This document shows, piece by piece, positions 2,443-23,428 of a stretch of 23,457 bases of DNA; position 1 is the stretch's first letter; the number at the start of each line of letters is the position of its first letter. The notes under the pieces were generated by a model. It was not told the origin of the DNA. It made no database searches and worked only from the letters and a program-made list of their open reading frames with translations. Made by a program: the position numbers and the translations under genes. The DNA is from a virus. The stretch spans positions 1-23,457 of IMG/VR virus record IMGVR_UViG_3300031963_000941. The stretch is one strand, 5' to 3'.

Positions 2443-2904
2443 GGTCCGATATCTTCTTTTAAATCCGTGGTGGAGTATTTGAGAACTCTATCCTTATCCC
2501 ATGTGAATGTTAAACAATTCACTTTCGGGCAGCTTAGTGATCTAGACATCGAAACTAACACTCAGTATCCTGTCAAGTATCCACTAGTCATGCTCATCCC
2601 TAGACGCGCGGACATAGATGCTGGGGGTAAGGTAGAGTTCTCTTTCGCACTTTCTGTACAGGATATTACCAACTACGATTTGGATATTGAGGAAGATCAA
2701 CTGAATACGACGTTTATGATTTTACAAGATTTGCTTTCTCGTATCCGTCAAACCACTTGGGACGAAGTGGAAGTCTACTTGGATGTGCCAGTAGTATGTC
2801 GTCCGTTTGTGGAAAGCTTCAACAACAACCTAACTGGTTGGAGTGCAGAAGTTGTGTTCGAAGTGAAGAATCCATTTAATAATTGTGACGCAGCTTTTAA
2901 CTAA
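2434..2904 (+). CDS. Probable tail completion / neck protein
   Basis: This soluble 156-residue alpha/beta protein is the first of the rightward structural genes. Early in the chain it shows SHVNVKQFTFGQLSDLDIET followed by the hydrophobic strand YPLVMLIPR. Mid-protein there is a helix with NTTFMILQDLLSRIR, and near the end a conserved-looking GWSAEVVFEVKNPF with a single Cys. I recall this pattern from small neck or tail-completion proteins of Bacteroidetes phages, but this is recollection, not a search. The gene's stop overlaps the next start as TAATG. The next gene looks HK97 gp10-like, which supports a role at the head-tail or tail-terminator joint. Its start codon lies in an inverted-repeat arm. 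Confidence 0.6.
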   Translation: MASGPISSFKSVVEYLRTLSLSHVNVKQFTFGQLSDLDIETNTQYPVKYPLVMLIPRRADIDAGGKVEFSFALSVQDITNYDLDIEEDQLNTTFMILQDLLSRIRQTTWDEVEVYLDVPVVCRPFVESFNNNLTGWSAEVVFEVKNPFNNCDAAFN

Positions 2905-3311
2905 TGGCTAATACAGTAAAACAAACATACAACAAGATTGCTAGGAGATTGGAACAAGTACTCCAAATGCAAGCACCTATAGATACTGGTCGATTAAAAA
3001 GATCTATCGCTGTTGCGTTTGACGAAAATGGATTTGTGATTTACGATCCCACTGGTTATGGATTTTATACCCACGCGGGAACAGGTAGAGAAGCTGCAAC
3101 ATCTGGAGATAATCCCCGTAGCATTTACGATGCGTTAAGCAACAAAAAATACAATCCGAATCCCGGTCAAGGTAAAGGTGGAATTAAACCAAGATATTGG
3201 ATGAACTTTTCGGATTCAGTGTATCAAATGATAGATGACGAATTGGAAAAAGCTTACTCCGAAGAACTAGAAGAAGACATAACCAAAATGTTAAATAAAG
3301 CAGCTGCATGA
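2904..3311 (+). CDS. HK97 gp10-like head-tail/tail component
   Basis: This 135-residue protein opens with a helix (TYNKIARRLEQVLQMQ), then APIDTGRLKRSI, the signature-like stretch of HK97 gp10-type tail-completion proteins. It continues with a beta strand (NGFVIYDPTGYGFYTHAGTG) and closes with an acidic C-terminal helix (DDELEKAYSEELEEDITKML). The length is normal for that family. HK97 gp10-like proteins act at the head-tail or tail-terminator interface, and the same role is inferred here. Translation is likely coupled on both sides: the start overlaps the previous stop by one base, and the stop overlaps the next start as ATGA. Confidence 0.65.
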   Translation: MANTVKQTYNKIARRLEQVLQMQAPIDTGRLKRSIAVAFDENGFVIYDPTGYGFYTHAGTGREAATSGDNPRSIYDALSNKKYNPNPGQGKGGIKPRYWMNFSDSVYQMIDDELEKAYSEELEEDITKMLNKAAA

Positions 3312-4069
3312 TAACTTTTAAGATAGACGATAAGAAGTACAAAATTCAGACCATTACAATCTCTGACTATTACAGAATTAAAAAACATTTGTTGTTAGAT
3401 CATCTGGCAGAGAAATATGAAATGCTTAGTCAACTGACTGGTTGTTCTATTGAAGACATTTCTAGAATTCCTTACAACGAGTTAATAGAAATCTTCGCAC
3501 TGTTAGAAATCATGGTTCAAAAAAGTCTACTTGAACAAGTAAGTGTGGCAAGTAAAATTTCTTTAGGTGGAGTGGAATATGGATTAGTAGATTTCGATCG
3601 TATGACGCTAGGAGAATTTTCAGATTTAGATGTGTTGGTAAACGATCCTAATGCTGATAACAAATTGCACGAAATGATGGCAATTCTTTATCGTCCAATT
3701 GTGAAGCAAAGACTTTTTAGTTACGATGTGAGTGATTACGATATGGCGGAATACAAAGAGCGATGTAAACTATTTTTAGACTTACCACTTAAGCACACAA
3801 AAGCAGTGACCACTTTTTTTTTGCTTTTCGAACTAGCATCTTCCGGAGCTACAGAAATCTTTTTGAAAGCAAATCCGAGGAAACGCCAGGAGATGAAAAG
3901 AAAAATCAACAGAGTATTAGCAGGCACTGGTACTCCACAATCGCCATACTTGCAGATCGTGATCCGCTTAAAGTACAAGCAGTCACTCAATTGGGTATCA
4001 GAGAAGCTTTCAATTTTATGGCTTGGACTTATGACGAAAATAGGAAAGCTGAATCCGAATCTAAAGTAA
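3308..4069 (+). CDS. Tail assembly chaperone, unshifted (G-like) product
   Basis: This 253-residue product begins MITFKIDDKKYKIQTITISD, a beta strand followed by helices. The core is helical (MTLGEFSDLDVLVNDP around residues 98-113) and includes MMAILYRPIV, a pattern I associate with tail assembly chaperones, which bind the tape measure protein before tube assembly. A run of nine Ts (3814-3822) follows codons for VTT. Beyond it, the -1 frame (to 4080) reads as more protein-like than this frame, with a helix containing REAFNFMAWTYDENRKAE. The sequence therefore suggests a programmed frameshift as in lambda G/GT. The 0-frame stays open for about 80 codons after the run, longer than usual. The chaperone role is inferred. 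Confidence 0.6.
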   Translation: MITFKIDDKKYKIQTITISDYYRIKKHLLLDHLAEKYEMLSQLTGCSIEDISRIPYNELIEIFALLEIMVQKSLLEQVSVASKISLGGVEYGLVDFDRMTLGEFSDLDVLVNDPNADNKLHEMMAILYRPIVKQRLFSYDVSDYDMAEYKERCKLFLDLPLKHTKAVTTFFLLFELASSGATEIFLKANPRKRQEMKRKINRVLAGTGTPQSPYLQIVIRLKYKQSLNWVSEKLSILWLGLMTKIGKLNPNLK

Positions 4070-4080
4070 GAAGAATATAA
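3308..4080 (+). CDS. Tail assembly chaperone, -1 frameshift (GT-like) fusion product
   Basis: If ribosomes slip back one base on T TTT TTT (3814-3820), residues 1-171 of the chaperone are joined to an 86-residue extension read from 3820 to the TAA at 4078-4080, giving 257 residues. The extension contains RHWYSTIAILADRDPLK and GIREAFNFMAWTYDENRK, which looks like a folded helical domain and resembles the T part of GT-type chaperones. The next gene starts 9 bases later. Both products are of similar size, which is atypical. The alternatives are a sequencing error in the T run or a real frameshift mutation. Confidence 0.5.
3814..3822 (+). other. Slippery T9 run, candidate -1 frameshift site
   Basis: Nine consecutive Ts contain the heptamer T TTT TTT in the chaperone frame. 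Both tRNAs can re-pair perfectly after a one-base backward slip. It lies where the 0 and -1 frames overlap, and I found no equally good heptamer before the convincing -1-frame sequence begins (about 3925). Confidence 0.55.
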
Positions 4081-4089
4081 AAAGTTATA

Positions 4090-5706
4090 ATGATAACCGC
4101 AGTCAATTTTAGACCAAAGTTTTATTCACCAGGATACAATCCTATTATTTGGTCTGTGACTAGTGACAAAGCACAACTCACTACCATATTTGATTTTTCT
4201 TATGTGTTCGATGTGTACATTGACGGTGTTTACATCAACAGATTTATTCAACGTCCTAATCCATCCGGAGCGGGTATGATTGATGTGGCTCCAATTGTAG
4301 AACCATTTTTAGAGATCGGAGATTTTGCCAACGAAGTAGGAGCAGAGATTAGCAAACCATTTAAGATGGGTAGCAATGCAATTTGCAACGTTAAGCTTTA
4401 TGCTGGAGAACAATATCGTGCAACTTCTGGGGCGCCACTGCAGGTTTACGATGGTTTAGGAAATGGCGGAGGTAATATTGGAAATCCAAGTTATCCATTA
4501 GGAGCGCAAGGATATTTTGACGATATGGATCCCACAGACGATAACGATATTCTGCCTGTAATTGTGATTCCAACTTCTTTAAATTGGAAAGAACAACAAG
4601 CACATTTGGCTGCACAAGAAGCTAACGCAGCAGACTATTATGGACTGTTCGGTTACGTTGCTCCTTATGTGTTAAAGAACAATACCATTTATCCGCCAAG
4701 CACATGTGGTGGTCCTGGTTTATTTCTTTCAGAAGCACCAAGATCTATTGCTGGTGGTGCATGGCAAACCACAACTGCCACTCCAAGTTATAACATTACA
4801 GCCGAAGCTTTAGACTATGATCGTTACACTGTGACATTCTTAAATCGTAATCCGGTGTATGAATACTTCCAAGGATCTCCAAGTTTGTTACAGAGTGCAT
4901 CTCCAAAAGTTGCTTGGTTTACTTTCTATTCTGCAACTGGAGCAATTGGAGAATACGCTATCGGTAACTATGAAGTTAACTTTGGTGGTGGACCAAGATA
5001 TCAGTGTGGAGGTTCAATCGCAAGTTCTGGAACTGGATCATTTTCTAATTTCGACAATCAGGAATTTTTAAGCCTTAGAGTTGGTCCAAAAGATCTAGAC
5101 GATTTAGGAGTTTGGACTTCTTTAGGTACTGTTCCTGAGTATTACACTGTGCAGTTGTTTAACGAATTAAACATTACTGGAAGTTGTGGATACACTGGAG
5201 CACCAACCGTTCCTGTTTCTGAATTATTAACCATTGACATTGTGGAAGATTGTTACTCTTATTTGTATCCGCGTGCAAGAGTCGCTTGGTTAAACTCTTT
5301 AGGTGGTAGAGACTATTGGAACTTTACCATGAAGGCAGAAGAAACTGTAGACACCACTGGACAAGATTTCTATCAAACAGAAGTAGATTGGAGTGCAACA
5401 ACCCCAGTCGTTTTGTCTAATGACACGACACAAAATTGGCTCAAAGGTGGTGTAAGACAATACAACAAATCTGTTCGAAGAAAATGGACAATTACTTCTG
5501 ATTTCCTAACTCAAGATCAAGTCGAGTTTTTGAAAGGTGTAGTAATGAGTTCTCAAAATTGGGTATACATAGGACAAGATGATTTTCCTTACACATGTAA
5601 AGTAAGTGAACAATCTTACACAGTTAAAACAATTAAACAAATAAAACTGTACACTGCTAACTTCACGCTAGAACTTAGCACAGAACAGTCAATGCAAAAT
5701 ACCTAA
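4090..5706 (+). CDS. Putative distal tail / tail-tip structural protein (538 aa)
   Basis: This 538-residue beta-rich protein has no signal peptide or membrane segment. The N-terminal domain starts MITAVNFRPKFYSPGYNPII and includes YVFDVYIDGVYINRF. The middle is rich in Gly, Tyr and Asn, with scattered Cys. The C-terminal region has a strand-rich pattern (residues about 410-535) with GGRDYWNFTMKAEETV, a basic YNKSVRRKWTIT and QNWVYIGQDDFPYTCKV. It resembles, from memory, tail-tip or distal tail proteins of Bacteroidetes phages in which a C-terminal beta domain packs on the tube. It lies between the chaperone and the tape measure, and its stop is followed directly by the 1433-aa gene (one base between), so the two are probably made together for one complex. 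Confidence 0.5.
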   Translation: MITAVNFRPKFYSPGYNPIIWSVTSDKAQLTTIFDFSYVFDVYIDGVYINRFIQRPNPSGAGMIDVAPIVEPFLEIGDFANEVGAEISKPFKMGSNAICNVKLYAGEQYRATSGAPLQVYDGLGNGGGNIGNPSYPLGAQGYFDDMDPTDDNDILPVIVIPTSLNWKEQQAHLAAQEANAADYYGLFGYVAPYVLKNNTIYPPSTCGGPGLFLSEAPRSIAGGAWQTTTATPSYNITAEALDYDRYTVTFLNRNPVYEYFQGSPSLLQSASPKVAWFTFYSATGAIGEYAIGNYEVNFGGGPRYQCGGSIASSGTGSFSNFDNQEFLSLRVGPKDLDDLGVWTSLGTVPEYYTVQLFNELNITGSCGYTGAPTVPVSELLTIDIVEDCYSYLYPRARVAWLNSLGGRDYWNFTMKAEETVDTTGQDFYQTEVDWSATTPVVLSNDTTQNWLKGGVRQYNKSVRRKWTITSDFLTQDQVEFLKGVVMSSQNWVYIGQDDFPYTCKVSEQSYTVKTIKQIKLYTANFTLELSTEQSMQNT

Positions 5707-10928: not shown

Positions 10929-13316
10929 ATGGCCGGTAAAGTCCAAATTAAAATAGACATTGAATCAGAATCAGTAGAATTTGCAACCGACAGAACTTTA
11001 ACCTTGACCGAAAAAACAAGGTTATTGAAAAAGGAATTGCAAACTATTCCGGAAGGTACCAAAGAATGGCACGTTCTGAACAACACGTTTAATGACACTA
11101 AAGATGCTTTAGATAGAGTTAACACCAAATCTAGAGACATATTTGGTACCATGAGTTTGTTGCCTGGACCTATCGGCCAAGTTAGTAACACACTAGAACA
11201 AACAATTGATGCTTTTAAGATTTTTGGTTCGCTAAAAACTTCAGATTTGAAAGCACAGTTAGGAAATCTATTAACTGATTTTAAAGATGTTGCTAAGACA
11301 ATTGGTAACCTAACTGGTATCACAAAAGTTTATACCACACTAAACAATGCACTTGCTTCTTCGTTTGTAAAAGTTGGTGTAGGTGAAACCGCAGCGGCGG
11401 CAGGAGCAAGAGCATTTTCTGCTGCACTAGTTGCAACTGGTGTTGGTGCTTTAATTGTTGCATTAGGTTTAGCGGTTAACGCGTTAATGGAAATGGCTAA
11501 TGCAGAAAGTGATGCTGAAATAGCTACCAGAGAACTTAACGACGAGTTAGAAAGACAAAACACTTTACTAGATCTAAATGCAAAAGATGCTGCTAGACGT
11601 AGAAAAGTAACAATTGCAGAAATGCGTGCTGATGGTAAAACTGAAAAAGAAATTCGACAGTTTAATTTAAAAGAAGCACAAAAAGATTTTGATGAAGCGA
11701 AAGCAGCAGAAGTTGAAGCTGTAAAAACATATAACGATGCTTTAGGAAAAGCTGATGAAGAAGGACTAAAAAAAGCAGGCGAAAATCTAGATAAAAGGCA
11801 ACAAGCAGTAAAAGATGCTTTATCTAATATTAAAGTTTTAGCAGCTGAATATAGAACTGAAGAAAATAAAGAGCAAGAATCAGCTAATCAAAAAGCAAAT
11901 CAAAAAGCAGAACAACAAAGAGATAAAGATAAAGCAGCAAAAGAAAAAGAACTAGAAGAACTTAAAAAAGGAAACAAAGAAGCTTTACAAGAAACTAGGG
12001 ATGCAAGGGTTAATGAGACTAATGAGGTAAACGAAAAGTACGACAATCTAGTTATGTTAGCTCAAAAATATGGTCAATCAACTAAAGATCTAGAAGCTGG
12101 TCGTATTGCTGCACTTTTAAAATTAACTGAAAAGTACAAAGAAGAAGACGAAAAGAAAGAAAAAGAAAAACAAGATAAAAAACTCGAAAATGCTAGGAAG
12201 TTATTAGAAATCGAGAAAGACCTTCACGAGTCTACTGTTGATGCAATGAAAGCCGGTAGAGATAAAGAGTTAGTAATTATTAAAGATGCAGGTCAGGAAA
12301 AAATCGATGCTTTCAAAAACGAATTAATGGAAGCAGAAAAGCTTAAACTTTTAACTGCTGAACAAGTTGCAGAAAAATTAGCAATTTTTACCAAAAACGT
12401 CAACGATGCAATTGCTGCACAGATTGAAGATCTAGATAAAAAAGATCTAAGTGAAAAATTAGACGAAAAATTACAACTTTTACAAATTCAAAGTGAAGGT
12501 TTACTTGCTGGAACGCAAGCATATTTTGATAACAGAAGAGCAATTATTAATGCTTCAGAACAAAAAGAGTTAGAAGATACAGAATTAACTGAAGCAGAAA
12601 AAACAGCAATTCAAGAAAAGTATGCTAGACAAAGAGACCAATTACGCAAAGAAGAAGTAGCTTCACTTGGTCAAACTATTTCAGCAACCATTAGTGCTAT
12701 TTCTTCTGTGACCTCTGCACTTGCATCTGGTTACGACGAAGAAGCTAAGACAAGCGAAGAAGCTTTTGAAAAGAGAAAGAAACTACAAATTGCCACTGCA
12801 GTTATGAGTGCTGCTTCTGGGGTAGTACAAATCTTAACCCAACCTTCTACTTTACCTTCTCCGTTCGACTGGATCGTAAAAGGAATTAATGCTTTGGCTT
12901 TAGGAGTTGCAACAGCGATCAACATTAAAAAGATCAAAGCAACAAAATTTGAAGCTCCTGATGCAGGTGGATCGGAAGCGGCATCAGCTGTGACTGGAAC
13001 CAAGTTTGCAAATGGTGGTATTTTAAATGGTCCAAGACATTCTCAAGGTGGAATCAGAACTAAGTATGGAGAATTAGAAGGCGGTGAGTTTGTTATAAAT
13101 AGACGTGCCACACAATCATTTTTACCTATCTTAAGTGCAATTAATTCTACCGGTGTAAGGAAATATGAGAATGGTGGAATGACAGCTTCTATTGATCAAT
13201 TACAATCGATGCTTATGAATCAACCAGCACAAATTGTTAAAACTTATGTGGTAGCTTCTGAAATGAGTAGCCAACAAGAAGCAGATAAACGCCTTAGAGA
13301 TTTGGCAAAAATCTAA
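10929..13316 (+). CDS. Tape measure protein
   Basis: This 795-residue protein would set tail length and occupy the tail tube, and is normally released at infection. Its N-terminal helices are followed by a hydrophobic stretch (about residues 161-189, with ALVATGVGALIVALGLAVNA). Residues about 195-560 form a long Lys/Glu/Ala-rich coiled-coil region. Further hydrophobic helices lie at about 578-600 and 620-668. The C-terminus has a Gly-rich segment (GGILNGPRHSQGGIRTKYGE, then GGEFVINRRA), which is typical of tape measure C-termini. At about 1.5 angstrom per residue, the length implies a tail near 120 nm. It stands downstream of the chaperone and tail-tip genes. No peptidase or lysozyme motif is seen. 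Confidence 0.85.
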   Translation: MAGKVQIKIDIESESVEFATDRTLTLTEKTRLLKKELQTIPEGTKEWHVLNNTFNDTKDALDRVNTKSRDIFGTMSLLPGPIGQVSNTLEQTIDAFKIFGSLKTSDLKAQLGNLLTDFKDVAKTIGNLTGITKVYTTLNNALASSFVKVGVGETAAAAGARAFSAALVATGVGALIVALGLAVNALMEMANAESDAEIATRELNDELERQNTLLDLNAKDAARRRKVTIAEMRADGKTEKEIRQFNLKEAQKDFDEAKAAEVEAVKTYNDALGKADEEGLKKAGENLDKRQQAVKDALSNIKVLAAEYRTEENKEQESANQKANQKAEQQRDKDKAAKEKELEELKKGNKEALQETRDARVNETNEVNEKYDNLVMLAQKYGQSTKDLEAGRIAALLKLTEKYKEEDEKKEKEKQDKKLENARKLLEIEKDLHESTVDAMKAGRDKELVIIKDAGQEKIDAFKNELMEAEKLKLLTAEQVAEKLAIFTKNVNDAIAAQIEDLDKKDLSEKLDEKLQLLQIQSEGLLAGTQAYFDNRRAIINASEQKELEDTELTEAEKTAIQEKYARQRDQLRKEEVASLGQTISATISAISSVTSALASGYDEEAKTSEEAFEKRKKLQIATAVMSAASGVVQILTQPSTLPSPFDWIVKGINALALGVATAINIKKIKATKFEAPDAGGSEAASAVTGTKFANGGILNGPRHSQGGIRTKYGELEGGEFVINRRATQSFLPILSAINSTGVRKYENGGMTASIDQLQSMLMNQPAQIVKTYVVASEMSSQQEADKRLRDLAKI

Positions 13317-13345: not shown

Positions 13346-15337
13346 ATGGTTAAAAAAGAAGAAAAAAGAGTGGTAGAATTAGAACTTATAGATGATATGG
13401 AAGATTCTGGAGTTTCTGCTATTGCTCTTGTTGACGAACCTGCAATTGAAAAATTTTGGGTGTACATGAAGAAACACGCGTTTGTAAAACCATCTTCGGG
13501 TGAAAGTGAAGCTGAATACATTCCACGTTGTATGAGTGTGTTGGTAGGTGACGAAGGTTACGACCAAGATCAAGCAGCAGCAATCTGCTATTCCACTTGG
13601 AGAGAAGAACACGCCGCTGTAGATATGAAATTTGAAAGCTATACTGACTATCCCGAATCTGCAGTTAATGCTGCTAAGCGTGCACTAGAATGGGCAGAGG
13701 AGAATGGTTGGGGTGATTGCGGTACACCAATTGGTAAAGCTAGAGCAAACCAATTAGCTAACAAAGAACCTATTTCAGAAGAAACAATTGCCCGTATGGC
13801 AAGTTTTGCCAGGCATTTACAAAACAAAGACGTACCATATTCTGAAGGATGTGGAGGTCTTATGGTAGATGCCTGGGGTGGGCAAGCAGGAATCGAATGG
13901 GCACAAAACAAATTAGAAAGCATTCGGGAGAAAATGAGTTATGACACTAGTGCTTTACCACCTTATGTGGACCAAACCCAAAAGAAGAAACGCAAGTTTA
14001 ATGAATATGGTTGTCCATCAGCCACAGTAGATATTGCTCTTAACTTGAAAAATCGTCAAGAAGCAATCGATGTTGCACACTACGGTCCATTGAATCCTAA
14101 TGATCCTAATGAAGAATATTGGCAAGCAAAAGCAGATATGTTTAACACTTCTGTTGACGAATCTAAAAGTGCACTTTGCGGAAATTGTGCATTTTTCGTT
14201 AAGACTAAATCCATGCTGGCGTGTATTGCTGCAGGAATTGGCGAAGACGCCCCCGCAGATCCTTACGACTCTATTGCAGCTGGTGAATTAGGTTATTGCG
14301 AAGCATTTGATTTTAAATGCGCAGCAAGTAGAACATGTGACGCTTGGGTAACTGGCGGACCAATCACAGAGGAATTTTTAGAAGATAACCCGTGTTGGGA
14401 AGGCTACGAAGCTTATGGTCTAAAAGATGATGGCACACCAAACTGTGTACCAGTTAAAGCACAAGCATTTGCTGAAAGACCAATTGCTAGAATTCCGGAA
14501 GAGGAAAGAGGTCGTGAAGGTTCTGCTAAGAACGAACCAGGAGATACTAAAACCTCTAGAGGTGGTATTGAAGTTTCTGAAGAAGTAGAATCTAGCTTGA
14601 AAGAAAAAATACAAGAACATAACGAGAAGAATCCACAAGATAGCCAAAAAGCTGATTTAGGTATGCTTAAAGCAGTATGGCGCAGGGGCGCCGGTGCATA
14701 CTCTGTAGGCACCCCAGGTCGCAAAGGTATGACTAGATCGCAATGGGCAATGGGAAGAGTAAATGCCTTCCTTAAAATTCTAAGTGGATCTGCTCCATCA
14801 GATAAAGACTATACACAAGACAACGACTTGTTACCGAAAAGTCATCCTAAGCACTCAGAATCAATGAGCAAACTTGCTTTTGCATTAGAGAAAGACAAAC
14901 AAGTTATTGTTGGACCAGTTGCTATTCCAGACATAGAAATCTATAGAAGGGACGAAGCTACCGGTGAACCTTACTATGTTAAATTTTCTGAATCTACCAT
15001 TCAGAGAATGCAAGAAAAATTCATGAAAGAATTAAGGAACCGGGATACAAATATCGAACATAATGAAAATCAAAATGCAAATTCTTACGTTTTTGAAAGT
15101 TGGATTGTCGAAGATCCTGAAACTGATAAAGCCAACACAGTTTACAATCTCGGACTCCCCAAAGGAAGCTGGGCAGTCAAAATGCGAGTTACAGACCCAG
15201 AAGTCTGGCAAAGTGTCAAAGAAGGAAAGTACAAAGGATTCAGTCTCGAAGGAAGCTTCGTTGACAAAGAAGACTTCGAAGACCTCCAAAAAGAAAAGTC
15301 AATGATCGAAGAGATCATGAACATACTTAAAAATTAA
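13346..15337 (+). CDS. Composite prohead protease with cysteine-rich phage modules (663 aa)
   Basis: The order of parts is: an N-terminal SGVSAIALVDEPAI segment (about 19-32); a small Cys module (about 49-88, EYIPRCMSVL and AAAICYSTW); a helical domain (about 98-192, WAEENGWGDCGTPIGKARAN and GCGGLMVDAWGG); a Cys-rich domain (about 203-345, CGNCAFF at 278-284 and FDFKCAASRTCDAWVTGGP); a PCWEGYEAYG/PNCVP motif (about 347-374); and a basic helical module (about 417-505). The C-terminal domain (506-663) has IEHNENQ (His572), PKGSWAVKMRVTDPEVW and GFSLEG (Ser633), as recalled for XkdF-like serine proteases. It is far longer than usual for such proteases. Position directly before scaffold and capsid genes supports a head-maturation role. 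The other modules are unexplained. Confidence 0.65.
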   Translation: MVKKEEKRVVELELIDDMEDSGVSAIALVDEPAIEKFWVYMKKHAFVKPSSGESEAEYIPRCMSVLVGDEGYDQDQAAAICYSTWREEHAAVDMKFESYTDYPESAVNAAKRALEWAEENGWGDCGTPIGKARANQLANKEPISEETIARMASFARHLQNKDVPYSEGCGGLMVDAWGGQAGIEWAQNKLESIREKMSYDTSALPPYVDQTQKKKRKFNEYGCPSATVDIALNLKNRQEAIDVAHYGPLNPNDPNEEYWQAKADMFNTSVDESKSALCGNCAFFVKTKSMLACIAAGIGEDAPADPYDSIAAGELGYCEAFDFKCAASRTCDAWVTGGPITEEFLEDNPCWEGYEAYGLKDDGTPNCVPVKAQAFAERPIARIPEEERGREGSAKNEPGDTKTSRGGIEVSEEVESSLKEKIQEHNEKNPQDSQKADLGMLKAVWRRGAGAYSVGTPGRKGMTRSQWAMGRVNAFLKILSGSAPSDKDYTQDNDLLPKSHPKHSESMSKLAFALEKDKQVIVGPVAIPDIEIYRRDEATGEPYYVKFSESTIQRMQEKFMKELRNRDTNIEHNENQNANSYVFESWIVEDPETDKANTVYNLGLPKGSWAVKMRVTDPEVWQSVKEGKYKGFSLEGSFVDKEDFEDLQKEKSMIEEIMNILKN

Positions 15338-15408
15338 TGAGGTTAGGAAATGTCAGTATGTTTTACTGTCATATACAACCACATAATTCAATAATAAAAG
15401 TCACTAAC

Positions 15409-16008
15409 ATGAATTACAAAAACAAACTTAATCAGATCCGCGTAGTTCTAGGATTGCAGATAAAGCTTGCTTCTGAGAAATTGGTTGACGGCACCCAAGT
15501 TGAAGCAGAAGAATTTGCACCAGGTATGGACCTAATGGTCGTAGCCGAAGATGGTAGCAAATCTCCAGCTCCAGCAGGTGAGCACGTTACAGAATCAGGA
15601 CTTAAAGTTAAAGTCGATGATGCTGGAAAAATCGTTTCTGTGGAAAAAGAAGAATCTGAATCGGAAGGACCTAAAGTCGAGATCGAAGTGGAAAAAGCTG
15701 CTCAACCAGTTAAAATGGCAGAAGAAGATAAAGGACCAATTGATGGTTCTGAACCTGAAGCTCCAAAGAAAGAAGACGCAGTTGAAGAAAAAATTGCTGA
15801 AGTCATGAAGAAAGTAATGGCTGCAATGGAACCCATGATTGCTGAAATGGCAGACATGAAGGCTAAAATTGCAAAAATGGAAGAGCAATATAGCAAATTT
15901 GCGAAAGCACCTGCTACTGGTAAAATTTCCACTTTAAACACTCAAGCTGAAAAAGCGGAGTCTGTTGATATTGTCGACAGATTTAAAGAGTTAAGAAAAA
16001 CTCTATAA
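15409..16008 (+). CDS. Prohead scaffold protein
   Basis: This acidic, Lys/Glu-rich protein lies between the protease and the major capsid protein, the usual scaffold position. From the ATG at 15409 it is 199 residues, starting MNYKNKLNQIRVVLGLQIKL. A short beta-like segment follows (DGTQVEAEEFAPGMDLMVVA), then a charged linker, then a Met/Ala-rich coiled coil (about residues 126-165, with VMKKVMAAMEPMIAEMADMK), and a C-terminal helix RFKELRKTL. Scaffolds direct capsid assembly and are removed by the protease. An upstream ATG at 15337 overlaps the protease stop as TAATG and would add 24 residues of unlike composition (MFYCHIQPHNS). I prefer 15409 for its A/T-rich lead-in and scaffold-like sequence. 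Confidence 0.7.
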   Translation: MNYKNKLNQIRVVLGLQIKLASEKLVDGTQVEAEEFAPGMDLMVVAEDGSKSPAPAGEHVTESGLKVKVDDAGKIVSVEKEESESEGPKVEIEVEKAAQPVKMAEEDKGPIDGSEPEAPKKEDAVEEKIAEVMKKVMAAMEPMIAEMADMKAKIAKMEEQYSKFAKAPATGKISTLNTQAEKAESVDIVDRFKELRKTL

Positions 16009-19612: not shown

Positions 19613-22600
19613 ATGAGCGGTAAATTACGCATACAGAACGAAGGAGAAATACAATTTGGACAATGGAGTACTAGCGGTACCGGTCCAGCTAATCCTTCTG
19701 CAGGTTATGTTACTTTGTATTCACAAGGTAGCCAAATCAAAGCGAAAGATCAAAATGGTAATATAACCGTATTTGGATCTTCAGGAACATCAGGACAGTC
19801 TGGTAGTTCCGGGACATCTGGACAATCAGGATCTTCTGGTAGTTCTGGACAATCTGGAACAGCAGGATCTTCCGGTACATCGGGTACGGGTTCACCAGGT
19901 ACATCAGGAACAAGCGGACAAAATGGATCTTCTGGTAGTTCTGGAGTAGACGGATCTTCTGGTAGCTCTGGCGTAAACGGAACTTCTGGTAGTTCTGGGC
20001 AATCTGGAACAGCGGGAACATCAGGAAGTTCAGGTTCATCTGGACAAACTGGTTCTTCAGGTAGTTCAGGTTCATCTGGCGTAGACGGAACCTCTGGTAG
20101 CTCTGGCGTAAATGGAACCTCCGGTAGCTCTGGCGTAAACGGAACATCAGGTAGTTCTGGAGAATCTGGAACATCAGGATCTTCCGGTAGCTCAGGTTCT
20201 TCAGGAACATCTGGAGCTAACGGTATCTCTTCTGGTCAGCTTTATTATTTTAACCAATCACAATCTTCTGATGTTGCTCCTTATAAGGTACTAAATCCTA
20301 TTCCTTCTGGTGGAGCACAACAGACTTTAACCACTAACTTAACCAGTCTTCAACAAAACGTTTTAGTTCAAGAATTTTTAACTCCTGAATTAGGATTTGC
20401 TGTTATCCCAGGTGGACAACAAACATTCCATTTTCATTATTTAAAACAAGCATCCGCAAATCTTTTAGATGCATACGCAACTATTGAATTAGCAAACTCT
20501 GCCGGTGTAGGATATGGAACGATTTTAACAACAGGAGTAGCACAAGTTGGATGGGTTGGAGTGTCAACACCATCATTAGTACTTTGTGATTTAACTTTAC
20601 CAACCACAACTATTAATACGACAGATCGTATGATAGTTAAACTATATTTAAACAACAACGATAACCAAGCACGTTCAGTAGATTTTTATACAGAAGGCAC
20701 ACAATACTATTCTTTTGTGGTAACTTCAGTAGGTGTAATTTATGCAACTAGTGGAACCTCAGGTAGTTCTGGACAAAACGGAACATCAGGTAGTTCTGGA
20801 CAAAACGGAACATCAGGTAGTTCTGGCGAATCAGGAACATCAGGTAGTTCTGGCGAATCAGGAACATCGGGAGTATCTGGTAGCTCAGGAACCTCCGGCG
20901 AGTCTGGAACATCAGGTAGCTCAGGTAGTTCTGGGGAATCTGGAACATCAGGAACCAGCGGAGCTAATGGAGCAACCGGTGCAACAGGTAGTGGAGCAAC
21001 CATTAACAACAACGCAGATAATCGTGTGATCACCGGTTCTAACACACCAGGAGAACTTAATGGAGAAGCAAATCTAACATTTGACGGATCTACCCTAAGT
21101 GTTAACTCTATTAAAGTTACACGCGGGGGTGCTAACGACGCATCTAATATAGCTATTGGTGTAGGATTACCCTCTAATACTGCCAATGGAATAGACCAAA
21201 TTTCCATTGGAAATAACTTAAATCTATTTCCTGGTAGTTACGACACTATTGCTATTGGTAATAATGTGGCTAAAAGTCTTACTATTGCCAATCCAAATAA
21301 CAGTTATGATAATATCCTAATTGGATATGGAGCTGCAGAACTTTCTAATCCTACCCTTTTCCGTGGTAACACAATGATCGGAGGTTATAGAACTTGGGCA
21401 GCAGGGGGTTATGCACTGCAAAATACTTTAGTAGGTGTGCAAATTGGAGAATTAGCTACAGGAGCAAGCGCTTCTAACACTGCTATGATTGGAGCTCTTC
21501 ATGCTTCCAATGCTAGTGGAGCTATATTTTCTAACTCTTCATTAGTTGGTAGCGGACAATTTTTAAATGCAAGAAGCGCTAACGTCAATGGTTCACAATT
21601 TACTGGACGATTACTTTTCCAAAATGCTAGTGGCGCTAGTGTTACTGGTTCATTTATAGCTGGTGATAATATAGCCGCAGGAGGTTCTGGAGCTACCTTT
21701 AGTAATGCAGTGGTTTTAGGAAGTAACGCTCTCCGTAATATTACAGGAGCTACGATTTCAAACACTGTGGCAATCGGTGCCGGACTTGGACAAAACGGTG
21801 CCACAGCATCTTATAATAATACAGTGGCAATTGGTCCAAATGTTGCCTTCGGAGGCACTGGAGGAAATTTTAATAGTTCTGTATTAATTGGTAACTCTGT
21901 AGCAATTGCAGGTACTGGAAATAATTCTAGTTCAGTTATTATTGGTTCCGGCGCTGGCCAATATGGAGGACAATCTAATTCAGTTATTTTAGGTGCGGAT
22001 GCAGGAAGAGGAATTACAGGAAGTAACTTAGATGGTAACGTCTTTATCGGATTCCAAGCAGGTCAATTAAATAATGCCTCTTATAACACCGGATTTGGAA
22101 CACAGTCAGTACAAAATAATACCACAGGAGCTTTCTTAACGGCATTGGGACATGGGACCCTTCAGGCGAACACAACCGGTAGTGGAAACACGGCCCTCGG
22201 CAGATATGCACTTAATGCAAACACCCTAGCAGATAACAATACAGCAGTTGGTTATAACGCTTTATTGTTTAACACTATTGGTACACAGTTAACTGCTGTT
22301 GGAGCAGGTGCTTTAGCAAATAACACTACAGGATCTTTCTCCTCAGCATTTGGTTCCAGTGCACTTGTTAATGCCACATATGGTGCAAATAACACTGCAA
22401 TAGGTCAAGTTGCTTTACAAAATTTAACCACAGGTTTTTCTAACACTGCACTCGGTAATGCAGCAGGTAATAACTTAACAACCGGAGCTTACAATACATT
22501 TCTTGGAGAAAATGCTGGATCTGGTATCACAACTGGTATCGGTAACGTGGTGATTGGTCGTAATGTGACAAGTGCCACTGGCGGTTTAAACAACAATATT

Positions 22601-23428
22601 CTACTTGGAGATGGCGATGGAAATATCCGTATGCAATTCAACGGAGCTACGGGTGTACAACTAAACTATTCTCAATTAAGTTTTGGAACCACATTGCCTG
22701 CTAAAATGGGTATGGCAAGCGAATCTACCTATTTAACTAGAGAAGGAACAGTAGTTAATGCTAATAGTACCATTATTGGATTTGCTGCTGCGAATAGTAT
22801 AAGTTCTGGTGACTACAACGTCTTCGTTGGTAGAGCAGCAGGATATGGGGTAACTACAGGATCTGGAGCAGTTGCAATTGGTAATTATTCAAGTGCTCTT
22901 GGTGGTAATGCTTCAGATTTTGTGACAATTGGATCTGGTGCTGGTCTATTTAATACTGGTAATAAAGTGGTTACAGTAGGTCAAGGATCATTGTATAATA
23001 ACACTGCGGAAGGAAGTGTGGCACTAGGATTCGAAACAGCTTATAATAATACTTCAGGTACAGAAAATACTTCTATTGGATTTAAAGCAGGTTACACGAA
23101 TGCAACTGGTGGATCTAACACTTATATAGGTTACCAAGCTGGATATGCTGCTACAGGATCTGGCAACACCATGATCGGAGCTGGATTATCTGGAGCAACT
23201 GGTAGCAATCAATTAAGAATTTCTACTGGATCTGGTACTCAGATTTACTCTGATGCAGGAAATTCCATTTCAGTATACAACATGTTTATTCCTAAACTAG
23301 ATACAGCAGCAAACATTACCGGAACTGCTTCACCAGTTGCAGGTATGATGGCTTATGATACCACTGGAAATCAGATAGTATTCTATAACGGAAGTGCATG
23401 GCAAAAAGTAAGCTTCACAGCATTATAA
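19613..23428 (+). CDS. Giant collagen-like/beta-repeat tail fibre (1271 aa)
   Basis: This 1271-residue protein begins with a module (residues 1-55, MSGKLRIQNEGEIQFG) that matches the other fibre's N-terminus, so both probably attach to the same virion site. A Gly-X-Ser collagen-like tract (about 56-200) precedes a beta-rich globular domain (about 205-378, with YYFNQSQSSDVAPYKVLNPI). A second Gly-X-Ser tract (about 380-449) leads to a long array of AIG-type beta repeats (about 514-1200). A C-terminal domain (about 1200-1271) ends VAGMMAYDTTGNQIVFYNG and SAWQKVSFTAL. No protease-chaperone (S74) end is seen. It is likely the main long fibre and host-recognition protein. Confidence 0.75.
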   Translation: MSGKLRIQNEGEIQFGQWSTSGTGPANPSAGYVTLYSQGSQIKAKDQNGNITVFGSSGTSGQSGSSGTSGQSGSSGSSGQSGTAGSSGTSGTGSPGTSGTSGQNGSSGSSGVDGSSGSSGVNGTSGSSGQSGTAGTSGSSGSSGQTGSSGSSGSSGVDGTSGSSGVNGTSGSSGVNGTSGSSGESGTSGSSGSSGSSGTSGANGISSGQLYYFNQSQSSDVAPYKVLNPIPSGGAQQTLTTNLTSLQQNVLVQEFLTPELGFAVIPGGQQTFHFHYLKQASANLLDAYATIELANSAGVGYGTILTTGVAQVGWVGVSTPSLVLCDLTLPTTTINTTDRMIVKLYLNNNDNQARSVDFYTEGTQYYSFVVTSVGVIYATSGTSGSSGQNGTSGSSGQNGTSGSSGESGTSGSSGESGTSGVSGSSGTSGESGTSGSSGSSGESGTSGTSGANGATGATGSGATINNNADNRVITGSNTPGELNGEANLTFDGSTLSVNSIKVTRGGANDASNIAIGVGLPSNTANGIDQISIGNNLNLFPGSYDTIAIGNNVAKSLTIANPNNSYDNILIGYGAAELSNPTLFRGNTMIGGYRTWAAGGYALQNTLVGVQIGELATGASASNTAMIGALHASNASGAIFSNSSLVGSGQFLNARSANVNGSQFTGRLLFQNASGASVTGSFIAGDNIAAGGSGATFSNAVVLGSNALRNITGATISNTVAIGAGLGQNGATASYNNTVAIGPNVAFGGTGGNFNSSVLIGNSVAIAGTGNNSSSVIIGSGAGQYGGQSNSVILGADAGRGITGSNLDGNVFIGFQAGQLNNASYNTGFGTQSVQNNTTGAFLTALGHGTLQANTTGSGNTALGRYALNANTLADNNTAVGYNALLFNTIGTQLTAVGAGALANNTTGSFSSAFGSSALVNATYGANNTAIGQVALQNLTTGFSNTALGNAAGNNLTTGAYNTFLGENAGSGITTGIGNVVIGRNVTSATGGLNNNILLGDGDGNIRMQFNGATGVQLNYSQLSFGTTLPAKMGMASESTYLTREGTVVNANSTIIGFAAANSISSGDYNVFVGRAAGYGVTTGSGAVAIGNYSSALGGNASDFVTIGSGAGLFNTGNKVVTVGQGSLYNNTAEGSVALGFETAYNNTSGTENTSIGFKAGYTNATGGSNTYIGYQAGYAATGSGNTMIGAGLSGATGSNQLRISTGSGTQIYSDAGNSISVYNMFIPKLDTAANITGTASPVAGMMAYDTTGNQIVFYNGSAWQKVSFTAL
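19777..20220 (+). repeat. First Gly-X-Ser collagen-like tract
   Basis: About 148 residues of G-x-S triplets (x mostly S, T, Q, V or N) are encoded with mixed Ser codons (TCT, TCA, TCC, AGT, AGC), so neighbouring DNA units are rarely identical. Proline is almost absent. Confidence 0.8.
20751..20960 (+). repeat. Second Gly-X-Ser tract with exact 27-bp tandem duplications
   Basis: A 27-bp unit is exactly duplicated at 20761-20787 and 20788-20814. A related 27-bp unit is exactly duplicated at 20815-20841 and 20842-20868. This is unlike the scrambled codons of the first tract. Confidence 0.85.
21150..23210 (+). repeat. Long AIG-type beta-repeat array in the giant fibre
   Basis: Repeats resembling those of the 436-aa fibre (for example NTAVGYNALLFNTIG and NTALGNAAGNNLTTG) run over about 690 residues. 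They are less regular than in the smaller fibre, with insertions between several units. Confidence 0.7.

Follow-up and report, generated by a model that had tools for sequence, protein, structure and literature searches.

An invariant nine-T run and overlapping alternative C-termini in a predicted two-product gene of an aquatic phage family

The gene that starts at position 3308 of this phage DNA raises the question of whether a run of nine T's in its middle marks a programmed change of reading frame and, if so, how the change is brought about and what the two resulting proteins, almost equal in length, would do. An earlier note, made from the letters of the window alone (the window being the whole stretch of 23,457 nucleotides analyzed here), had proposed a -1 programmed ribosomal frameshift in a tail assembly chaperone gene. 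The parts of the gene are the following.

3308-4069, + strand: 0-frame coding sequence, 253 amino acids, comprising the shared N-terminal domain and the 0-frame tail (from the ORF list and translation; open in relatives)
3308-3820, + strand: N-terminal part common to both predicted products, 171 codons (48% mean identity in nine lineages; confident AlphaFold region at residues 1-170)
3814-3822, + strand: putative T9 slip site, with the in-phase heptamer T TTT TTT at 3814-3820
3820-4080, + strand: -1 frame tail, 86 codons plus stop, giving the predicted 257-residue fusion (from conservation, z = 25, and the single-ORF homologue L091)
3821-4069, + strand: 0-frame tail overlapping the -1 tail, 82 codons plus stop (from the probability of an open frame and conservation above the -1 constraint)
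3822-3836, + strand: +1 frame after T9, four codons and then TAG

The heptamer is in phase with the ORF starting at 3308, and the T9 run is the sole run of A or T of at least eight in the window. Translation yields a 0-frame product that ends at the stop codon 4067-4069 and a -1 fusion that ends at the stop codon 4078-4080. The mid-gene T9 with its heptamer and the near equality of the two products, both pointed out in the earlier note, are borne out by the sequence, the latter in the closest relatives as well.

The gene follows a tail completion gene, and three ORFs (starting at 4090, 5708 and 10020) separate it from the tape measure gene.

2434-2904, + strand: conserved 156-residue neighbor, used as the anchor for finding relatives
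2904-3311, + strand: tail completion or neck type protein (phrog_5, E 6.7e-6), sharing 4 bases with the gene at its start
4090-5706, + strand: downstream neighbor of 538 residues, conserved and without a family in database searches
10929-13316, + strand: tail tape measure protein (phrog_1506, E 2.2e-10)

Further downstream, PHROG 24921 (349 aa) is split over the adjacent ORFs 13346-15337 and 15337-16008, with profile positions 41-174 matching the C-terminal part of the former (head maturation protease like) and 204-290 matching the latter; either a protease-scaffold gene that is naturally divided or a further site of recoding may account for this. The 1271-residue ORF at 19613-23428, in which long GTSGSSG-type repeats are followed by adhesin-like repeats, likely encodes a tail fibre or adhesin.

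A family search with the N-terminal domain, which involves no selection for the site, together with a search with the C-terminal domain, yielded 46 distinct homologues that possess the site. The run is T9 in 45 of these and T10 in one (L013, through a G to T change), and runs of 7, 8 or 11 were not encountered. Two phages grown in culture on a marine flavobacterium, the Nonlabens phages P12024L and P12024S, are among the sources of these homologues. In them, the gene is split as gp40 and gp41, annotated as two unlinked hypothetical proteins; T9 occupies the corresponding position (L003:3781-3789 and L004:3781-3789; NC_018272 and NC_018271) and joins gp40 to gp41, and the frame transition is unannotated. 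The window protein matches that of P12024L in both parts (N-terminal part, E 8e-11; -1 part, E 1.9e-5). The two halves of the gene in this cultured relative, gp40 and gp41, are filed as the unrelated PHROG families 32199 and 38404, both of unknown function, and the 0 frame of P12024L stops 25 codons after the site. The annotated phage collection contained no match other than P12024L and P12024S, and no relative of the neighboring gene was found in GTDB genome contigs.

Homopolymers are error prone, and the gene could in principle owe its two frames to a sequencing or assembly error in a gene that truly has one; however, the same T9 recurs in nearly all of the distinct homologues, from many separate assemblies and including the finished genomes of P12024L and P12024S, and the only T10 arose by substitution. 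A separately assembled, near-identical contig (L001, 99.6% over 4.85 kb) shows zero differences from the window within 3308-4080. Elsewhere, the differences between the two lie nearly all in 2297-2436, around divergent gene starts, with two others in 4.85 kb, and this cluster may reflect an artefact of the contig end or a regulatory region that varies. A T9 tract is also of the type that can vary in length, such that DNA-level length changes could switch the frame in the manner of a phase-variable contingency tract, but T8 and indel-made T10 are absent among the 46 homologues, near-identical groups included, and both frames are conserved at length 9. On these comparisons, phase variation and a pseudogene appear very unlikely, and an error is scarcely conceivable.

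What follows the run in the -1 frame was examined in nine lineages that were found via the neighboring gene at 2434-2904 and hence blind to the slip site. All nine have a T run at the same codon, followed by the -1 tail, the mean identity of which (47%) matches that of the shared N-terminal part. The tail opens with the pattern FFFxFRxSIxxxYxxLF and continues, after a variable acidic linker, with WYxTLxxLAxxNPLxxxxxxxLGxREAxNFxAW. Synonymous sites are near saturation between the lineages, and synonymous-codon redraws of the 0-frame protein never reach the observed -1 similarity (z = 25). Furthermore, three homologues (L091, L092 and L093) contain the N-terminal motif and the C-terminal domain in a single ORF, without the T run and with no need for a slip; the L091 protein can be aligned to the window fusion across the motif as well as the domain (hhalign E 1.7e-15; 30% identity by BLASTP). 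These genes (L091:2623-3291 and L092:2620-3309, for example), each of which follows the terminase gene either immediately or almost so, are natural versions of the fusion product and, given their existence, the two-isoform scheme is one that was gained or lost within the family. The -1 frame is, by all these comparative measures, the predicted true and conserved continuation of the gene after T9, and the earlier note's reading of it as convincing protein up to 4080 holds. Homologues that continue in the 0 frame and lack the -1 segment, which that note had named as the finding that would speak against it, were looked for and none was found.

The 0 frame after the run, described in the earlier note as less protein-like, does show less conservation than the -1 frame; nevertheless, it has been kept open, and parts of it are conserved. 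In the window's group, it runs 82-98 codons past T9, and among the closest relatives of the window its stop and the -1 stop are no more than about 20 bases apart. It is open in all nine closest lineages, against 2.8-6.5 stops expected from synonymous redraws of the -1 protein; the probability of an open 0 frame in such redraws is 0.001-0.013 for the window and 0.0002-0.001 for its relatives, values which, like the others obtained from redraws here, are guides and not exact probabilities, given that the redraws treat codons as independent and the lineages share ancestry. When seven diverged lineages of this group are compared with stop-avoiding redraws, the 0 frame shows more conservation than the -1 constraint accounts for in columns 16-42 (matched by 0 of 1000 redraws) and from column 76 to the end (matched by 12 of 1000), with columns 43-75 showing no conservation beyond openness; the excess is located largely opposite the variable linker of the -1 tail. 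The 0 frame of a sister group likewise has a conserved end point, about 64 codons past T9, and its conservation exceeds the -1 constraint over most of the overlap, with z of 8.3 and 6.1 in two subsets that were picked for near-saturated synonymous sites and whose lower values are used instead of an earlier 11.5. In the outgroups P12024L, L045, L096 and L098, the 0-frame tails are shorter and no longer than chance.

An alternative is that the -1 tail alone matters, the 0 frame being open as a by-product and its tail being without function. The much better conservation of the -1 frame, the early 0-frame stop in P12024L and the bare openness of columns 43-75 are compatible with this possibility, but the low probabilities of an open frame in every lineage, the excess in columns 16-42 and the z values of the sister group argue against it, and we consider it unlikely. 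Because the 0 frame is both kept open and conserved beyond the -1 constraint, the overlap appears to code in both frames in the window's group and, since the outgroups have shorter tails of chance length, the long two-frame overlap seems to be a property of part of the family that is longest in the window's group. The site, its conservation and the coding in both frames can be read from the aligned sequences themselves, which point to a genuine and conserved case of a gene programmed for two products, of the G/GT kind, in which T9 is invariant and the alternative tails are written in two frames.

The most satisfactory explanation overall, and in our view a highly probable one, is that two isoforms are made from one start codon, with a programmed frame transition at T9. 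Both would have the same 171-residue N-terminal domain; standard reading would add the 82-residue 0-frame tail, and the programmed transition would instead add the 86-residue -1 tail, a small helical domain that is fused in a single ORF in L091-L093. We infer the production of both proteins and their ratio. The programmed use of the -1 frame at T9, as proposed in the earlier note, is well supported by the 46 homologues and the single-ORF fusions; the ribosomal nature of the event is another matter, because the heptamer cannot tell the two routes apart, and the constancy of the run length points at least equally to transcriptional slippage.

A ribosomal route of the classical kind known from lambda G/GT and P2 E/E', in which -1 programmed frameshifting would occur on U UUU UUU alone and the extra T's would be incidental, is a possibility that we take seriously while holding it somewhat doubtful. 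It agrees with the in-phase heptamer in all 46 homologues, with the rarity of T7 and longer runs elsewhere (4 seen versus about 38 expected, a depletion that suits a ribosomal heptamer as well) and with the wide occurrence of the -1 type in tail chaperone genes (PMC5009743, PMC3711429). However, the heptamer cannot decide the mechanism, because any T9 contains one in phase, and the run is never 7 or 8 bases long. P12024L and L066 have the run displaced by one base, with a T gained at -7 and another lost at +2, so that the length of 9 is retained; T8 and T9 could, nevertheless, be held by amino-acid constraint (Leu in the 0 frame, Phe in the -1 frame). No conserved RNA element was detected downstream, where the folds of single sequences have a mean z close to 0 and the consensus yields a weak fold of -1.8 kcal/mol, and the stimulatory structure that might be sought for a ribosomal event is accordingly not apparent.

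Runs of nine A's or T's are known sites of transcriptional slippage in bacteria (PMC1088944, PMC5009743), and Baranov and colleagues recognize candidates by the avoidance of such runs in coding sequence and by conservation of the run and the ORF arrangement in homologues (PMC1088944). In the present family, a run of at least nine is conserved together with the overlapping ORF arrangement, and such runs are avoided elsewhere in coding sequence: in 187 kb of it (224 CDS from 30 contigs), all 30 A/T runs of at least nine are the T9 site itself, whereas synonymous redraws lead one to expect about 19, spread over the genes, and none is seen outside the site. The fixed run length, this avoidance and the lack of a conserved downstream structure lean slightly toward polymerase slippage over ribosomal frameshifting. 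Our leaning is therefore to the insertion of a U by RNA polymerase at the T9 tract, to which we would assign about an even chance, with ribosomal shifting alone ranking just below it, and it is possible that slippage and ribosomal shifting act together. If the polymerase does slip, loss of one base at T9 would give a third, truncated product, given that the +1 frame stops within 0-11 codons after the run in all 46 homologues and immediately in 20 of them.

With respect to function, the architecture, a shared part plus a -1 domain, and the location of the gene suggest that it probably encodes a tail assembly chaperone. Genes of the lambda G/GT type usually lie just upstream of the tape measure gene; their chaperones bind the tape measure and tail tube proteins and are absent from the virion. 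By analogy with lambda gpG/gpGT, the isoform ratio would serve tail assembly: the tape measure protein would be bound through the shared domain, and the -1 tail would bring in a further component of the tail. The chaperone assignment of the earlier note is thus plausible on architecture and location, but profile and fold searches provided no match in its favor: Pfam, PHROG and NCBIfam showed no match to a chaperone family, PDB fold and sequence searches returned nothing usable, and the family has no detectable homology to known chaperone families. AlphaFold models the N-terminal domain (residues 1-170) confidently, the 0-frame tail as a helical segment near residues 190-205 with low confidence beyond it, and the -1 tail as helical with middling confidence. 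Comparison with viral fold models gave 37 relatives at E of 0.001 or below, all uncharacterized or unnamed and including the P12024S protein, and only a weak match (E 0.26) to the chaperone of phage Kitkat. Flavobacterium phage 6H is among the viral fold matches. Matches to Pfam DUF1322 (E 0.003, below the cut-off) and CYTH were dismissed as weak.

The gene resembles lambda gpG/gpGT and its counterparts in long-tailed phages in its single start, in the predicted slip that follows the shared part, in its -1 C-terminal domain and in its place in the tail module, and specifically in the conserved slip site at which a -1 transition would join the shared N-terminal part to a conserved C-terminal part. 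It differs in that the -1 product of the lambda type is clearly longer than the standard one, as is also the case in P12024L and the sister group, whereas the window products have 257 and 253 residues. In P2 E/E+E', the slip occurs on T TTT TTG, likewise a T-rich site in a tail gene, as opposed to the run of fixed length 9 and the long two-frame overlap of the present family; the efficiency of the P2 frameshift is given in PMC5009743. In lambda, where GT is the longer product, the slip occurs close to the 3' end of g (PMC5009743), whereas here the 0 frame extends for 82 codons under the -1 tail. The review by Atkins and colleagues states that frameshift products generally differ in length from the standard ones (PMC5009743), in contrast to the near-equal products of the window gene. 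Shigella mxiE, Thermus dnaX and IS elements share with it a conserved nine-A/T run that joins overlapping ORFs (PMC1088944), although transcriptional slippage at the window T9 is a proposal from sequence. In the literature searched, the coverage of which was partial, we found no report of the T9 site and none of transcriptional slippage in a phage tail assembly gene.

The full picture, in which aquatic phages of a widespread family, relatives of a flavobacterial phage, set the ratio of their two tail-assembly isoforms through slippage of RNA polymerase on the invariant T9, with selection acting in both frames on the two overlapping C-terminal tails, strikes us as plausible, if a little short of an even chance. 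Phage recoding gains a large, previously unannotated family, one member of which, P12024L, is in culture. A site at which the 0-frame ORF spans nearly the whole gene would escape gene callers and frameshift predictors that seek two adjacent ORFs. The two-frame overlap would offer a clear example of joint selection on alternative C-termini and, if T9 acts by transcriptional slippage, the stoichiometry of tail assembly could be fixed at the level of RNA as well as on the ribosome.
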